From NCBI GenBank assembly GCA_022497155.1, contig MU385750.1, positions 248,001-312,000 of the forward strand: a DNA stretch of 64,000 nt. The letters are read 5' to 3'. The translations under genes and the position numbers were made by a program. Positions 23,753 to 62,002 of this stretch are shown here, piece after piece. The first letter of the stretch is position 1; the number at the start of each line of letters is the position of its first letter. The DNA is from Whalleya microplaca. Taxonomy: Eukaryota; Ascomycota; Sordariomycetes; Xylariales; Xylariaceae. The notes beneath the pieces are model-generated. The model saw only the letters and a list, made by a program, of their open reading frames with translations, was not told the origin of the DNA and did no database searches.

Positions 23753-23841
23753 GCCCTTGTAGCTCAGTGGTAGAGCGCGGCACTCGTATTTCCCCTTCCC
23801 GAGGTATGCCGAGGTCCATCGTTCAATCCGGTGCGGGGGCA
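23753..23841 (+). tRNA. tRNA-Thr(CGU) with a 17-nt anticodon-loop intron
   Basis: A complete cloverleaf. The acceptor GCCCTTG (23753-23759) pairs with CGGGGGC (23834-23840), followed by discriminator A. The D stem is GCTC/GAGC, the anticodon stem CGGCA/TGCCG and the T stem CATCG/CGGTG around TTCAATC. The anticodon is CGT at 23785-23787, with A at position 37. A 17-nt intron (23789-23805) sits at the canonical place between positions 37 and 38, so it is of the ordinary endonuclease-spliced type. A T5 run shortly downstream can serve as the Pol III terminator. Confidence 0.93.
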
Positions 23842-55186: not shown

Positions 55187-56806
55187 CTATGATTCAGTGT
55201 CAAACACTTTCTTCCCCTTGAACCATGTTTGTACGACCCTCGCTTCTAGCAACTTCTCAGCGTCCCATTCCATATCAACCACAACAAAATCTGCCATCCT
55301 CCCAGCCTCGAGCCTACCCGCCCACTGATCTGCAAAGCAACTGTATGCAGAACCCTCCGTACCAGCCGCAATAGCAGCGGCCAGCTCAAGGGCGAAATTT
55401 GGATTCATACGATCTGTCAGCTCCGGTTCCCTGGCGGACCGTCGCGTCGTCGCCGTGTAAGCGTTTCTTAATGGCGCATGTGGTGCAGTCGGAGCATCAG
55501 AACCCATAGCGAGCACGGCACCGCCATCGGCAAATTCCTTATAGGCGAAGGCTCGCTCGCAGCGCGATGGTCCAAGCAGCGATGGCCAGGCGCGAAGGAT
55601 GGCAGGATCGGCGTGGACCGGCTGAATCGACGCTGTGATCCCTAGCTTTCCTAGTCTAGCGGCGTCTTCGGGTGACGCGAGCTCGAGATGCTCGATGCGG
55701 TGACGGCGGCCAGGCGTAGCATTCTGCTCGAGCGCGTCGATTGCGGTTCTGATGGTCTGGTCGCCAATGGCGTGTAAAGCACATTGTAGTCCTGCGGCGT
55801 CAGCCTTCTTGACGACTGGGCCGAGCTCTTCGAGAGACCAGATAGGGGCACAGGATAGTCCGTTGGAAGTATAGGGCTCAGTAAGGGCGGCAGTACAACC
55901 ATCGATAATACCATCGCCAATTACCTTGATGCCCACTACACGGCAATCGGGACTCTTCTCCGAGTTGAATTGCTGGTTAAGCTCAATGGCGCGATCGATC
56001 TGGGCGAGGTTTTCCGCCTCTGTCTTGCGAGGGGTAATAAGCCAGTGGATCGCAAATCTGATAGGCAAGGCTTCCTTTTCGCGTAGTATCTGCAAAGCTT
56101 CCCAAGCGTTCTCATCCATGGCCATTTCTACTAGTCCTGTGTAGCCAGAGGCATTATATGCCTCTACCGCCCCCTTAATCGCTGCCAGTTTCTCTTCCAT
56201 CGGTGCAACCTTTGCAACATACGGCCAGACAATTGTAACGGCAGCGGATTCAGACAAGAGACCCGATGCTTTGCCGTTCTCATCACGATGGATCTTCCCT
56301 CCTTCCGGATCGGGCATGTCCTGTACTCCCATCTCGTCCAGAGCGGCGGTGTTACACCATGTTGAATGCAAGTCCTTGGAGTCGATGAAGATGGGCCTCG
56401 GGTCTAGGTCATCTATCATACTAGCCAGTGCCTCCCCGTTCGTCATGGAATGCATCCATCCCTTACACATTATCCGGGAGACTGAAGGGTGCGCGACTGC
56501 ATACTCTTTAATCGTCCTCCGAATATCTTCTAGGTCTTTACATGCTTCTAGTCCGGCTTTTTGGAGTGACTGTCCAAGCATCAAGAGGTGCATATGTCCA
56601 TCAATGAATCCTGGCAATACTATGCGTTCCTTCATGTCATGTCTAGTGACTCCGGCAGCTTCGGCCTCCTTGACCTGGTTGTCGCTAGAGCTACCAACGT
56701 AGGTGATTTTTCCGCCGCCATCTACCAGCATGCAATCCGCAAAGGATTGATGCTCGCCTCTAGACCCGGACTGGAAGAATCGTCCATTATGGAATAGGGT
56801 CGCCAT
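55187..56806 (-). CDS. Amidohydrolase of the YtcJ/Amidohydro_3 type
   Basis: A single-exon gene of 539 aa. Metal-dependent hydrolase signatures are in order: H71 and H73 in GFIDGHMHL, K294 in VGIKVIGDG (the position that can carry the bridging carboxylate), H345 in HAIGD, H373 in RIEHLEL and D437 in GSDAP. The N-terminal NGRFFQSG...FADCMLVDGGGKI and C-terminal GRMADFVVVDMEWD form the small beta sandwich of urease-superfamily enzymes. It has no signal peptide, so it is probably cytosolic. Members hydrolyse N-acyl or formamide-type bonds; substrate is unknown. Length is normal for the family. The start is the first ATG, giving MATLFHNGRFF directly before the first strand. Confidence 0.87.
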   Translation of the reverse strand: MATLFHNGRFFQSGSRGEHQSFADCMLVDGGGKITYVGSSSDNQVKEAEAAGVTRHDMKERIVLPGFIDGHMHLLMLGQSLQKAGLEACKDLEDIRRTIKEYAVAHPSVSRIMCKGWMHSMTNGEALASMIDDLDPRPIFIDSKDLHSTWCNTAALDEMGVQDMPDPEGGKIHRDENGKASGLLSESAAVTIVWPYVAKVAPMEEKLAAIKGAVEAYNASGYTGLVEMAMDENAWEALQILREKEALPIRFAIHWLITPRKTEAENLAQIDRAIELNQQFNSEKSPDCRVVGIKVIGDGIIDGCTAALTEPYTSNGLSCAPIWSLEELGPVVKKADAAGLQCALHAIGDQTIRTAIDALEQNATPGRRHRIEHLELASPEDAARLGKLGITASIQPVHADPAILRAWPSLLGPSRCERAFAYKEFADGGAVLAMGSDAPTAPHAPLRNAYTATTRRSAREPELTDRMNPNFALELAAAIAAGTEGSAYSCFADQWAGRLEAGRMADFVVVDMEWDAEKLLEARVVQTWFKGKKVFDTES

Positions 56807-57469
56807 GTTATAGTGTAAATCATTTAGCAGCCTTTTATGAGAGTTTATGGGACGATTAGTAGAAGCACGTCTAAGGTTTACGATGCTAGTCTAACATAGT
56901 AAGTCCTCCCGGACCCCACTCACGCCGTGATCGGCCGGCTGTCTAGAAGCCAAGAACCATCTCTCAAGTAGTCTCGGACTACTATTGATACACACCATCT
57001 TCCATTATAATGAATCCGTCCTTGTTATAAACCAGATTATGCTTATTTTTGGCATATAATATGCCTGTGTTGAAGTTACGCAAATATTCTCACGCCAGTC
57101 AGCACACCCCCTAAATATCCAAGCATATAAATGAGCAAATCCCGACTAGATCAACCAGCCCTGCCAGCGTAGAGTACACTCTTCCCATGCATTATACATG
57201 ACTTTTTCAGTTATTTTTCATCTCTAGTTCCCGTGGTTTCTTGAGGTTAAGACTTCAAACTTTCAAATTTTGCTTATCTATCATCGACATTATATGAACA
57301 TTAGATATAGAGACCGACAAATCCAAGAAGTGCCCGAGATGACCTTTGTCTTGACCACATCGCCAACCACTTTTGTACCATTGAGGAGGTTCTTATACTA
57401 AACACGCATTGTATACACCTGACTTGCCTCTCGTATCGTCAAGCTAGGTCAAGTCAATAAGGTCACTGA
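56807..57469. other. Spacer, amidohydrolase promoter
   Basis: No gene or RNA recognised. Upstream region of the minus-strand amidohydrolase and 3' flank of the CBM18 gene. Confidence 0.4.
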
Positions 57470-57962
57470 TCAATCAGTGCATTCTCCGTAAGTAGCTTGA
57501 CAGCCATTCGCAGTAGCGCAATGAGCTTCCGTGTTCCCGCAATAGCCACTATGTCGCGTCAGTTCCCGAACTTTGAAACTACTTCATTGAACGACCAGTG
57601 TCGGTAACTTACGCAATCGAGCAGCAAGTCCCCTCGCCCTCAGCGGGACACTTGTAGCCATATACCCCAGCTCCCTCCGATCCGCAAGTGCCGTCGGGCG
57701 AGATGGTCGTGCCATCCACCGGTTCAGTGCAAGCTGCGGTCGCGTTGGAGAAGTCGCCCTGACAACCCATGGAGGTGAGGCAGAATTCGTCGGTCGAACC
57801 GCAGTAGCCGTTCTGGGAGCAACAGGCTATCTCTTCAGGGCATGTGTAGCCATTGTCGGCACCTCCTCCCTCTATACCACAGCTCCCGTCCGGGGAGACT
57901 GCCGACCAGGCTGTGGCAGCCAGGAGGCCGACGGTAACGATGTTCAGTACGCGGCTTAACAT
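57470..57962 (-). CDS. Secreted protein with two chitin-binding (CBM18/hevein) domains
   Basis: Two exons on the minus strand, 57962-57613 and 57548-57470, joined by a 64-nt GTAAGT...ATAG intron in phase 2; 142 aa. Residues 1-21 are a signal peptide (hydrophobic IVTVGLLAATAW core). Two hevein-like units follow, each with SPDG(S/T)CG, a CPxE..xxCCS core and GYCG(S/N)T; the second unit is completed only by exon 2 (GYCGNTEAHCATANGCQATYGEC). Such proteins bind chitin in the fungal wall or shield chitin fragments, some acting as effectors during host contact; this is family knowledge, not shown here. Without splicing, the ORF would stop in the middle of the second domain. Confidence 0.87.
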
Positions 57963-58942
57963 GATGACAGGAATGCTAGTCTTAGCGATATAGTAGTTTA
58001 TGACCTTCGACTCACTAAGTTCTTCAGATGTCTCGAGAGGAAGAGACTAGCTACAGGATTTCCTACGCGAATGGCCATTCCCTTATACACCGATATAACT
58101 TCTTACAATGACACCTTGCCGCGTGTTCCCGCTAATTAGGCTCCGGATCTACGCAGGACCCTAGATCCAGATGAAATGGAAATAAACCTCTTCATATTAC
58201 TCTCCATATTGTCTACTCAGGGGCACGTTGCAGATCTCCAAATCTTTTTCCTGTCGGAGAAGTGTAGACGTTTCCTCGCTAATTTAGCCGATCGAGGTTT
58301 GGATCTTGGCTTCTGTAGGGTAAGTCTGGTTGGGCAGGGAGAATAAGACTGCCGGAAATACACTTAATGGTTGCATACCGTTCCTGTATTTACTCGACTC
58401 GCATTCGAAAATCCCAAGCTCTCTCAAATGTGATAATGGGCTTTCTAAGGATAACCAGTTCTCGAGCGTTCTTCCCCACACTGTACCAGCTTAAACAAAA
58501 TGAAGCCCGGCTGATACTCTATTATCAGAACATTGAGTCTCTGTCTCATTATGTTTTGCTTCATGCTAAAAGTAGTAAATCTTATAGGTTAATAACTACT
58601 CGATTTGCTTGTGTGGGCATATAAAAGTAACATAACACAGTGGACTAGCTAGAGGCCCTGATTGATGTTCAAAGATCTATACACTAATCCAGCCTATAGT
58701 CTATGAAAATTTTAGTTTCACTAATAAGCACTTTTAGCCCTCTTAGTTTCCGTCGTCCGGTACCCGATTAGGTGGACAGACCCGCAGCTCTACAGGTCCC
58801 AACCCTACATCAACATCAGCCCGGGGTCTTGAATCAGTTGTCATTACGCACATCGATGAAAATTCTGCTACTTATGTTGCAATACGAGCCCTGCTTCTCA
58901 ACATTCATTCACCCGGCTTGCCCGGTTATTGCCATGAAATAT
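57963..58942. other. Spacer between the CBM18 gene and tRNA-Lys
   Basis: Promoter region of the CBM18 gene. The short ORFs at 58284-58624 on both strands have no recognisable content. Confidence 0.4.
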
Positions 58943-59077
58943 GCCTGGCTAGCTCAATCGGTAGAGCGTGAGACTCTTAATCTCAAGGTTGCGGGTAAGT
59001 TAAGACTGCGTCTAACATGCAATGCATATTCCGTATATACTAACACCTCTGCGAAGGTTCGACCCCCGCGTTGGGCT
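58943..59077 (+). tRNA. tRNA-Lys(CUU) interrupted in the T stem by an mRNA-type intron
   Basis: The cloverleaf is complete once 58995-59056 is removed. The acceptor GCCTGGC (58943-58949) pairs with GTTGGGC (59070-59076), discriminator T. The D stem is GCTC/GAGC, the anticodon stem TGAGA/TCTCA with loop CTCTTAA and anticodon CTT (58976-58978). The T stem GCGGG/CCCGC encloses TTCGACC. The 62-nt insert begins GTAAGT, contains TACTAAC ending 12 nt before its last base and ends in AG: a textbook fungal spliceosomal intron. There is no intron at the normal 37/38 site. The last intron G plus exon gives GGTTCGACCCC, so the B box is intact in DNA. A T9-10 run near 59126 can terminate Pol III. Confidence 0.85.
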
Positions 59078-60373
59078 CAATTCCTAACGCTTCCCAGTTC
59101 ACTGGGATATGCAATCATAACATTCTATTTTTTTTTATCGCCTTTTCTTCTTACCTTTTTAATCCTTTCAACTGCTTGTGAACCTTTGTATGGAGTGTAG
59201 CCTTCAACCGAAAAACTTCTCTGTATATAGTAGAACAGGGTGACCCCTTTTCTTGTTCCCAGAATACTGCGGCGCCTAAGCATACGTTCGTGCGCAGAGC
59301 ATCATTGCTTGATATCACACAAAATCCCCGAGACCACCCATTACTTAACTTTCAGTTTTGTCGATGCAGGCTTCATTGTTTGGTGAGTATCAAACACATA
59401 ATATCTACATGACCACACTTCACCCGCCCCCCAGCGGACAACTCTAAGAACCCAAGCCATAACTTAAGTAAAAGGTCTCCAACTATAACAGAACGCTTTG
59501 ATAAGCCCCAAGAGGCAAGTATATCGCGGTGGCCGATATGCCAGTCGGCCAATGTGTTCTGACAGGTACTCTTGTCAATGCATCCTATCTCAGGGACCTG
59601 TCCCTCATCACGTGAAAGTCTACGTCTTGTTCAACCAGGGACAGCTGCAGTTCGGATTCCTAGCAACAAGCAACCAACCAACCGTGTCTGATCCCAGCCG
59701 AAGAAGGGCATATGGTGAGGGTAACCTATACTATCAGACTTGGTGGTATTGTGAGTCCATGGACAGACAGTCATGCTAACAGACATCCTCGTCAAAAACT
59801 TACCTAGCTGTAAACTACAACAACAAAGTAGACATGATCTTGATTCTCAAGGACCCTAGTATCAATAAGACTTCAGCGTAGAAATTTGGAAGTTGGGCTT
59901 CTATGGGACATTCACTGGCATAAATTCTGGCAATTGGGGTCTCCAAGACAGAAACCACGGTCCGTTTTGTGCGCACATAGTTCATTACTATCAACTGAGA
60001 GGGGAGAAAAGCAACGTCCCTGGGGAAGTCAGACATGCTGCATGACAGCATGACATTGATGAGAGGCTCAATCTAGACATCTCCATATGCCTGTACTCTC
60101 TCGTGTGCTCGTACTCAGTGCTCATGTTCCGCACTGCTGTTACTGAAATTGCACCCGCTATGTACGCAGTGTTGGGGTGTTCATTCATGCTCCTTTCCTT
60201 GGTTATCTTTGCGGCTTTGGATATCACTCGAGCTCGGCGCTCCTCCTGCAGCTCTCTTGATATCATTCCTGTACTCATGCCCTATCACTTCACTTGTTGC
60301 CATGCAAATTGTCATGCATACGCCAAAGAATCGTATGCAACAATTCACACAAGCAGGTCTTAGCGTCCATCAT
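59078..60373. other. Spacer with a decayed ORF
   Basis: Contains the Pol III T-run of tRNA-Lys near 59126 and the possible pseudogene at 59498-60060; otherwise nothing recognised. Confidence 0.4.
59498..60060 (+). pseudogene. Possible decayed gene with in-frame stops
   Basis: One frame reads as protein-like (GFLATSNQPTVSDPSRR, KTYLAVNYNNKVDMILILKD, KFGSWASMGH) but is broken by TAA, TAG, TAA, TAG and TGA codons. Several could be Gln codons changed by C to T. The text between stops loosely recalls the blades of a secreted fungal lectin-type propeller. No start or end can be fixed, and chance is a real alternative. Confidence 0.3.
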
Positions 60374-62002
60374 CTAAGCCTCCCTAGCATCCTCAGCATC
60401 CTCAGCATCCTCAGCGTCCTCAGCGTCCTCAGCATTTTCAGCGTCCTCAGCATTTTCAGCTTCCTCAGCATTCTCAGCATTCTCAGCGCTCTTCTCCTCC
60501 TTCAGGGGACTTGCCTCCTTCAAAGTTGCGTTACTCCCACCATGCTCCGACCCTGCAGCGGACTCCTGAGCATCCGACAACTGGTCCTCCCCAAGGCTTC
60601 TGCTCTCATCTCCAACTTCTTCATTCTCATCCTTGGTGCTCTCCGCATTGGCACTCTCGGCCTCGACACTCTCAGTCCCGACACTCTCTGTCCAGGCACT
60701 AGCATTAGCGCTTTCCGAGTTGATAGAAGCAGTCGGTGATGGTGAAGCTTTCTTCGACGTCAGTCGTCGGTATTCCTCCAGCTCTTGTCCAATGGCCACA
60801 CCCGAGATCTCAGCCTGCTCTGACAGATGCTTCATGTAATCATTTCTCAGAGGAACTGGCATCTCTTTGAGGCACTCATCCACTAACTGTGGAAATCGTA
60901 GATTACAGTTGGTGTGTGATTGATGAGGCAGGTGATTGGGGCCGCGGTAAGGAATTGTTTTGATCCCCTCAAGCTTAACCTTCAACTCTGAAATGCTGCC
61001 GTGGTACTTGGCAGCCGTGGGAACAGGAAACAGACCCGCAGCCACCATGGCAGGAATGGCAGAACCCAGCATCATGGCCTCACATTGCCGGGTATCTCGG
61101 CCCAGCCGACAGAAATGAGTGTTGGAGTCCCTGTCAGGAGACGCCAGGAGCATCAAAGGAGTACGGACTGACTCGAGCATCTTGGAAATCGTCGAAGTGC
61201 GTGCAGTGGCAATCATAGCGAAGGAAGAAGTCAGCAGTGAATTCATATGAGTCGAATGTGGTTACCTACCAAATAGACCAGGAGGAAGAACCATTTCCTT
61301 CACCAGTTTGCCAGAGACGTTGACAAGCTCGCCTCGGGCATCAGTCTTGCTGCTCAGGATAAGAGCGTCGGCCATCTTGCGGAACAGACGGACATCGCCA
61401 AGGACCCATGCACACCAGATTAACTTGTGGCATTCGGCCGGACAATAGTCATGGCCAATATAAATAGACAGATACTTCGCCCAATCGTTTGCCCAAGGGT
61501 AGATGAGATGGGTGCATCTGTACTTGGAGGTGATGAGGGCAATCTCGAATAGCTCATCAAGGTCAGGCTGAACAGGGACCTTTTTGAACTCGTAGTGCAC
61601 AATACGTAGAATGGTCTCCAGGGCATCTGCATTGCCCTCGACGTTGAGGACCCATTCACCGTGGGCAGGGCGATTTTTGGCATCCTTGCCGTACAGTTGG
61701 GTGCGCCAAACAGGAGACGCGACAGCAAGGGAGCATGATGAAACCTGAAGCTTAATGGGGCCGTCGGGTGTCTTCACAGGGATGATAATGTCGCTGTCAA
61801 TATGAAAAATGACATAGTGTGTCTTGACAGAAGCCTTGGAGGCGATGGACTCGGAATCCGTATCTTGCTCATTGATTGGAGTAAGTCCGCGAGTAGGCGA
61901 GGCTGGCAAACTAGGCACCTTAGGCGCTTCGGGCGCGTCGAGCACCTCATTAGAGGGGAGGGCACCGGTCTCGGGAATGTCGACAGTGGCAGAAGAAGCC
62001 AT
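60374..62002 (-). CDS. BTB/POZ-domain protein with an acidic repeat tail
   Basis: Two exons on the minus strand, 62002-61270 and 61167-60374, joined by a 102-nt intron (GTAGGT...GTCAG) in phase 1; 508 aa. After a disordered Pro/Ser-rich N-terminus, residues about 61-170 form a BTB-type fold (HYVIFHIDSDIIIPV...LQVSSCSLAVASPVWRTQLYG...ETILRIVHYEF), as in the many Pezizomycotina BTB proteins of unknown role. The helical region that follows (ALITSKYRCTHLIYPW) is usual for the family. The second exon continues with a His/Cys-containing domain, and the C-terminal 130 residues are low complexity, ending in an (A-E-D/N)n repeat. BTB proteins often dimerise or act as cullin adaptors; neither is shown here. 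The ATG 62002 is preferred, since the frame further upstream offers only TTG. Confidence 0.75.
60386..60488. repeat. 9-bp coding minisatellite (TCCTCAGCA-type)
   Basis: About eleven copies of a 9-bp unit (TCCTCAGCA, TCCTCAGCG, TTTTCAGCG, TTCTCAGCA) encode the Ala-Glu-Asp/Asn repeat at the end of the BTB protein. Multiples of 9 bp keep the frame, so length variation between strains is likely. Confidence 0.9.

Follow-up and report, generated by a model that had tools for sequence, protein, structure and literature searches.

Can a nuclear tRNA gene carry an intron that is removed by the spliceosome? The introns of tRNAs and of mRNAs are taught as belonging to separate pathways with separate machines, and a nuclear tRNA spliced by the spliceosome, if true, would join the two. 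The question is raised by a tRNA-Lys(CUU) gene of the fungus Whalleya microplaca, whose T stem is interrupted by 62 nt that look like a pre-mRNA intron. The gene occupies positions 58943-59077 of the window, by which we mean the whole stretch of 64,000 nt that was analysed (C41:248001-312000, in a genome of 48.1 Mb and 114 contigs).

Several known systems resemble this locus in part. Canonical nuclear tRNA introns, which are removed by the Sen endonuclease and a ligase, likewise lie in nuclear tRNA genes, but their place is the anticodon loop. Rogers et al. reportedly described in 1993 an mRNA-type intron in the nuclear 18S rRNA genes of fungi; this is also a spliceosome-type intron in the gene of a structured non-coding RNA, the host there being an rRNA, which is a Pol I transcript, and here a tRNA. 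The mRNA-type introns in fungal U6 snRNA genes, which are said to have been surveyed by Canzler et al. in 2016, are a further parallel. The U6 introns of fungi, including fission yeast, share with the present case a Pol III-type gene, a short GT-AG intron with a branch site, and removal by the pre-mRNA machinery; unlike them, the insert described here has a tRNA as its host, the fold of which depends on the interrupted T stem. That introns occur in fungal U6 genes was already known, and the passages of PMC5832005 cited here state that, among small structured RNAs, only U3 and U6 are so far known to be often interrupted by introns. In the U3 snoRNA introns of fungi, as treated in the same passages (PMC5832005), the pre-mRNA machinery also excises an intron from a small structured RNA, with a snoRNA as the host instead of a tRNA. 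The earlier note on this DNA knew of no established case in a nuclear tRNA, and a search of the open-licence literature, judged by title and opening of the abstract, likewise found no paper reporting that the gene of a nuclear tRNA carries a spliceosomal intron.

Anatomy of the interrupted tRNA-Lys(CUU) gene

The gene was read directly and cut by script, and its features are collected in Table 1. The earlier note had described a tRNA-Lys(CUU) split in the T stem by 62 nt with GTAAGT, TACTAAC and AG, which is correct to the base. The insert starts with GTAAGT, holds TACTAAC with 12 nt between this motif and the end of the insert, and ends in TATACTAACACCTCTGCGAAG. Its excision leaves joined exons of 73 nt (52 nt + 21 nt). 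The further statement that GT-AG removal restores the T stem GCGGG/CCCGC is borne out by the joined sequence and its predicted fold, a full cloverleaf in which all seven acceptor pairs are present. Since the border bases repeat, four alternative cuts give an identical tRNA by direct reading, one of which is the GT-AG cut with GTAAGT; the repeat at the insert borders is a 3-base direct repeat, GGT (58994-58996 and 59056-59058).

ARAGORN did not call the interrupted gene, either by default or with introns of up to 200 nt, and calls tRNA-Lys(CUU) after removal of the insert. The Rfam tRNA model covers the interrupted gene over model positions 1-71 of 71 with 45.2 bits (gathering score 29), showing the insert as a gap in the T-loop region. 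If the splicing proposed below is true, genes of this kind escape tRNA finders that are built for anticodon-loop introns, as this one escaped ARAGORN.

We take the two promoter segments listed in Table 1 to be the A box and the B box from the consensus sequences of these elements. As the earlier note had also seen, the last G of the insert (59056) doubles as the first G of the B box, and the box is whole in the unspliced gene. The string TTTT is absent from this insert and from the Ala and U6 inserts described below; 60 of the 77 introns listed below likewise lack it, and this absence is therefore permissive and no proof. In the predicted fold of the unspliced precursor, the D and anticodon arms are kept and the T arm is lost to other pairings.

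Table 1. Features of the interrupted tRNA-Lys(CUU) gene, in window positions, and the insert of the U6 gene
Feature	Position	Strand	Basis
tRNA-Lys(CUU) exon 1: acceptor 5' strand, D arm, anticodon arm, variable loop, T-stem bases 49-52	58943..58994	+	sequence, Rfam RF00005
A box TAGCTCAATCGG, internal Pol III promoter (presumed)	58950..58961	+	read from sequence
62-nt spliceosomal-type intron GTAAGT...AAG	58995..59056	+	scripted cut
5' splice site GTAAGT, GG directly before	58995..59000	+	sequence
Additional CTAAC, upstream of the branch site	59012-59016	+	sequence
Branch site TACTAAC, branch A 59043	59038..59044	+	sequence
3' splice site AG, first AG past the branch site, A before (AAG)	59055..59056	+	sequence
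B box GGTTCGACCCC (presumed)	59056..59066	+	read from sequence
tRNA-Lys(CUU) exon 2: T-stem base 53, T loop, T-stem 3' strand, acceptor 3' strand, discriminator	59057..59077	+	sequence, fold
3' trailer hairpin, predicted	59089..59112	+	fold
T9 run, likely Pol III terminator	59128..59136	+	sequence
U6 53-nt spliceosomal-type intron beside the ACAGA box	L060:1484-1536 = C4:1360499-1360551

Comparison with uninterrupted Lys(CUU) genes

A look for other Lys(CUU) copies, which the earlier note had proposed, found three uninterrupted genes in the genome (C18:539578, C32:267768, and C32:485053). The underlying tRNA list was made by scoring 63 of 1595 first-look candidates and holds at least 61 loci; Phe, Trp, Cys, and Gly(GCC) are missing from the ARAGORN labels of this incomplete list. 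The tRNA body is identical in the two C32 copies. When spliced in silico, the window gene differs from C32:485053 only at the paired positions 4/69 (T-G in the window gene, G-C in the sister). The C18 copy, which shares T4 and G69 with the window gene, differs from it at three sites, all of which keep pairing (pair 7-66, C7 and G66 in the window gene, and position 68, T68 in the window gene, with U or C opposite G5).

Since none of the differences from the sister genes breaks a base pair, these alignments show no decay in the tRNA body of the interrupted copy; such pairing-preserving differences may predate the insertion. The features of a tRNA pseudogene were likewise not found, as the stems pair after joining and the boxes and the T9 run are present. 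Each of the four Lys(CUU) genes has a 3' trailer with a predicted hairpin, the sequence of which differs per copy, and a T run 39-50 nt downstream. Judged by eye, the upstream flank of the window gene is unlike the flanks of its sisters, and the gene is therefore no fresh duplicate.

Fit to the introns of the species and chance expectation

For the signal pattern GTAAGT N25-55 TACTAAC N5-20 AG, 167 places were counted over the two strands of the 48.1 Mb, some of them twice where two AGs fit, and 57 for the reversed-pattern control (an excess of 110). The density of the pattern is about one per 0.6 Mb of strand, and in the Lys gene it lies exactly on a cut that restores a tRNA. A reference set of 77 introns was taken from part of this list, with one intron per start and the nearest AG, omitting incomplete rows, an overlapping pair, and the row of U6; selection was by the splice signals themselves, and chance matches are included. 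It replaced an intron model built from reading-frame continuity, which had given 6 and then 21 candidates, several of them plainly wrong.

The reference introns have a median length of 58 nt (10-90% range, 50-70) and a median of 11 nt after TACTAAC (10-90% range, 8-16). The Lys, Ala, and U6 inserts, with lengths of 62, 56, and 53 nt and with 12, 12, and 10 nt following CTAAC, all lie within these ranges and have the 5' splice site GTAAGT in common. The base before the AG is C in 38 of the reference introns, T in 23, A in 15, and G in one, which makes the AAG of the Lys insert a minority choice (A at -3 in 15/77). With GTAAGT, TACTAAC, the first AG after the branch, and its length, the Lys insert agrees with a U2-type intron on each of these points.

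When intron-like GT..AG segments were removed in silico from 98 sequences (293,077 bases), a tRNA formed across the junction in 2 of 400 cases, the Lys and the Ala gene, and in none of the 485 controls, which were segments with reversed motifs. As the Lys gene was given and the Ala gene was sought by pattern, the 2/400 shows specificity and not a genome rate. A looser removal scan, which demanded neither a branch nor a 5' site, called 44 of 7103 segments, with 18/7599, 28/7747, and 17/6538 in the controls, and was discarded as too noisy because the edges of intact tRNAs were also cut.

A second interrupted gene, tRNA-Ala(CGC)

The second gene was found via the pattern CTAAC..GGTTCRANNCC (19 places, control 14), followed by an Rfam scan of 15 of the 19 loci and one other; the loci omitted were the window's own, two known tRNA-Glu genes, and one that had been scanned earlier. 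It is a tRNA-Ala(CGC) gene at C38:93566-93712 (L108:1397-1543), which scored 37.1 bits in the Rfam scan and carries two introns. One is a 19-nt intron in the anticodon loop. The other is an insert of 56 nt (L108:1462-1517) between the variable loop and the T stem, which reads GTAAGT..GCTAAC..TTAG and is flanked by GGGT of the variable loop before it and CCTGGG of the T arm after it. The borders of this insert cannot slide, so that the GT-AG cut is the sole one that restores the tRNA.

The CGC anticodon is our own reading; after the cut, the ARAGORN call is tRNA-Ala, with the register shifted. An intact Ala(CGC) neighbour starts 528 bases upstream, and the gene without both introns differs from it at two sites, which are the partners of one pair (A-T, as A6 and T67, versus T-A in the neighbour). 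Energy folding gave a lowest-energy structure other than the cloverleaf for the spliced Ala tRNA and for the intact neighbour alike, and the Rfam model fits a cloverleaf. Outside the splice signals, no likeness between the Lys and Ala inserts was seen by eye.

Further patterns were searched in the genome. The pattern GTAAGT..AG..GGTTCRANNC occurs at 11 places (control 16), the Ala gene among them; three other loci of this set (C40, C11, and C77) were scanned and gave no tRNA, bringing the places covered to 4 of 11 including Ala. For CTAAC..AGGTTCGA, 18 places were found (control 46), and Rfam gave no tRNA at E 0.1 on the 17 others. For CTAAC..HGTTCRANNCC, the pattern count alone was 41 places versus 67 in the control. 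Since the search is partial, two interrupted tRNAs are a lower bound. Viral contigs, scanned for an exact pattern, and bacterial and archaeal genome contigs, scanned for a gapped one, each gave 0 matches, as expected for a fungal gene.

Two of the loci reached in this way, L117 (C11:874400-874750) and L118 (C77:78700-79080), hold a dispersed element with a B-box-like GCGAGTTAGGTTCGATT in or near an inverted repeat, and ARAGORN found no tRNA in either; at C27:176187 the match consists of the string GCGAGTTAGGTTCGATT only. The element may be tRNA-derived or a foldback repeat.

Searches with the inserts themselves, which skip very common words and simple repeats, bear on a mobile element, which the earlier note had named as the alternative should identical 62-nt sequences stand elsewhere. 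That alternative is unsupported, as no other copy of the Lys insert was found in the genome at E up to 10, the one match being the insert itself. The Ala gene with its insert matched itself and, in two exon matches, its neighbour. An introner-type mobile intron, which is recognized by many near-identical copies, thus found no support at either gene in these searches.

An insert of the same type in the U6 gene

U6 is an essential RNA and a product of Pol III. The sole U6 gene above the cut-off (C4:1360516, 63.6 bits; 47 of 2566 first-look candidates were scored) is interrupted by 53 nt of the form GTAAGT..TACTAAC..CAG between GAAACGATAC and AGAGAAGATTAGC. The order along the gene is GCC..GAAACGATAC, then the 53 nt from GTAAGT to TACTAACTGCATCACAG, and then AGAGAAGATTAGCATGG; the joined parts give the ACAGAGA region of U6. 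The whole-gene Rfam match crosses the intron and places the 5' part wrongly. In a search of 55 bases, the 5' part matches U6 positions 1-40 with 17.4 bits, which is under the family cut-off of 44 (E 0.0095).

Because U6 is essential, made by Pol III, and interrupted, the spliceosome of this nucleus very probably acts on a Pol III transcript. A B-box-like GGGTTCAACTC (GGTTCAACTC) was read inside the U6 insert. No U3 snoRNA scored above the cut-off in the genome (best 24.4 bits).

Alternative explanations of the inserts

The earlier note had held the tRNA to be either spliced by the spliceosome or dead. The comparison favours the spliceosome, in view of the second tRNA, the U6 gene, the pairing-preserving differences, the intact boxes, the T run, and the absence of TTTT, and the Lys and Ala inserts are most likely both spliceosomal introns of Pol III pre-tRNAs. 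The insert could also be a true spliceosomal-type intron by origin in a copy that is silent or poorly spliced, a tolerated and dying gene. The three intact Lys(CUU) genes and the intact Ala(CGC) neighbour meet the need for these tRNAs, and neither interrupted copy therefore needs to work. A dying copy nevertheless accords poorly with exons, promoter boxes, branch site, splice sites, and a T run that show no decay, and with two genes affected in the same manner, and we consider it unlikely.

The canonical intron of the Sen type is placed at 37/38, and the Lys insert lies between T-stem bases 52 and 53. ARAGORN reports an ordinary tRNA intron in 31 of 60 loci scanned, with lengths of 8-39 nt and a register that is sometimes off; none of these 31 has the ends GTRNG..AG, three start with GT, two end with AG, and two contain CTRAY. 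An intron at an ectopic position, cut by the tRNA endonuclease at a bulge-helix-bulge, has a precedent in Cyanidioschyzon merolae, whose nuclear tRNAs have T-arm introns with such motifs according to the passages of PMC9602550 cited here; those introns also interrupt the T arm of a nuclear tRNA, but theirs is the bulge-helix-bulge and here the signals are spliceosomal. The motif was coded as a 4-bp central helix, two 3-nt bulges, and flanking helices. At the GT-AG register of the Lys gene, the central helix is complete (4/4) and the flanking helices reach 1/3 and 2/3, with three other registers weaker centrally, whereas the Ala cut gives 3/4 in the centre and 0/3 and 0/3 in the flanks, so that the full motif is found at neither gene. 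The central helix is not a sharp test, as 5 of the 31 ordinary introns reach 4/4 and 14 reach 3 in the best of three registers. This explanation would also leave the GTAAGT and CTAAC signals unexplained and is very improbable.

Equally doubtful is a Pol II transcript, such as a long non-coding RNA, that crosses the region and uses the intron, with the tRNA being incidental. Spliceosomal splicing is ordinarily coupled to Pol II, which speaks in its favour, and the site, together with the insert, lies inside a stop-to-stop frame of 142 aa (58772-59200). However, this frame gives no sign of an exon ending there, the cut restores a tRNA exactly at two loci, and both promoter boxes and the T run are intact. 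It is scarcely credible that the insert is a chance insertion, or the gene a pseudogene, with coincidental splice motifs. The GGT border repeat would fit an insertion with a short target duplication, but the ordered GTAAGT and TACTAAC on a tRNA-restoring cut are far below chance (pattern density; controls 0/485), and inserts of like type are also present in the Ala and U6 genes.

Proposed maturation of the interrupted tRNAs

For the preferred reading, that of spliceosomal introns in Pol III pre-tRNAs, we infer the transcription, splicing, order of steps, and function of the product as follows. The Lys gene would have acquired its insert as a U2-type spliceosomal intron, which separates T-stem bases 52 and 53 and immediately precedes the B box. 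Because the last G of the insert is the first G of that box, TFIIIC should bind the unspliced gene, and Pol III would transcribe it from the internal A and B boxes up to the T9 run. Pairing of U1 with GUAAGU and of U2 with UACUAAC would then allow the spliceosome to take out the 62 nt. The T arm would form only after the removal of the intron. Since the T arm is replaced in the predicted fold of the precursor, the latter should be a poor substrate for end processing, and splicing should come first; RNase P, RNase Z, and CCA addition would complete the tRNA only after splicing. The Ala precursor would require both the tRNA endonuclease pathway and the spliceosome.

Judging from the sequence, we regard it as probable that the spliceosome removes the Lys intron from a Pol III pre-tRNA and that a working tRNA results. 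With somewhat less assurance, we lean toward the broader view that tRNA maturation in this fungus includes the spliceosome as a functioning component, which would splice two or more nuclear tRNAs, Lys(CUU) and Ala(CGC) among them, with both pathways being necessary for the Ala precursor. Since the Lys and Ala introns both stand just upstream of the B box, no more than a few bases away, their placement suggests that Pol III genes may gain spliceosomal introns where the promoter elements tolerate them. If true, Pol III transcripts beyond U6 would be recognizable to the spliceosome without a cap or a Pol II tail, and intron gain in short structured RNAs would be directly testable because intact sisters of the same tRNAs are present in the genome.

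Other features of the window

A tRNA-Thr(CGU) gene at 23753-23841 of the window (49.7 bits) exceeds an uninterrupted tRNA in length. On the minus strand at 60374-61261, a stop-to-stop frame ends in long repeats of the Ala-Glu-Asp type (NAEDAEDAEDA), and the opposite strand holds other low-complexity frames. For an amidohydrolase gene at 55187-56890, the best named matches come from Hypoxylon species and their kin, with a top identity of 88% among the best 120 of 5407 matches, which marks the organism as a Hypoxylon-like ascomycete (order Xylariales). On the minus strand at 55187-58046, this gene adjoins a small cysteine-rich frame, which we take to resemble a chitin-binding domain. Among the matches listed, several protein records from Hypoxylon and its kin (P0002, P0006, and P0007) have the amidohydrolase and PF00187 in one protein, which is perhaps a gene-model fusion of two neighbours.
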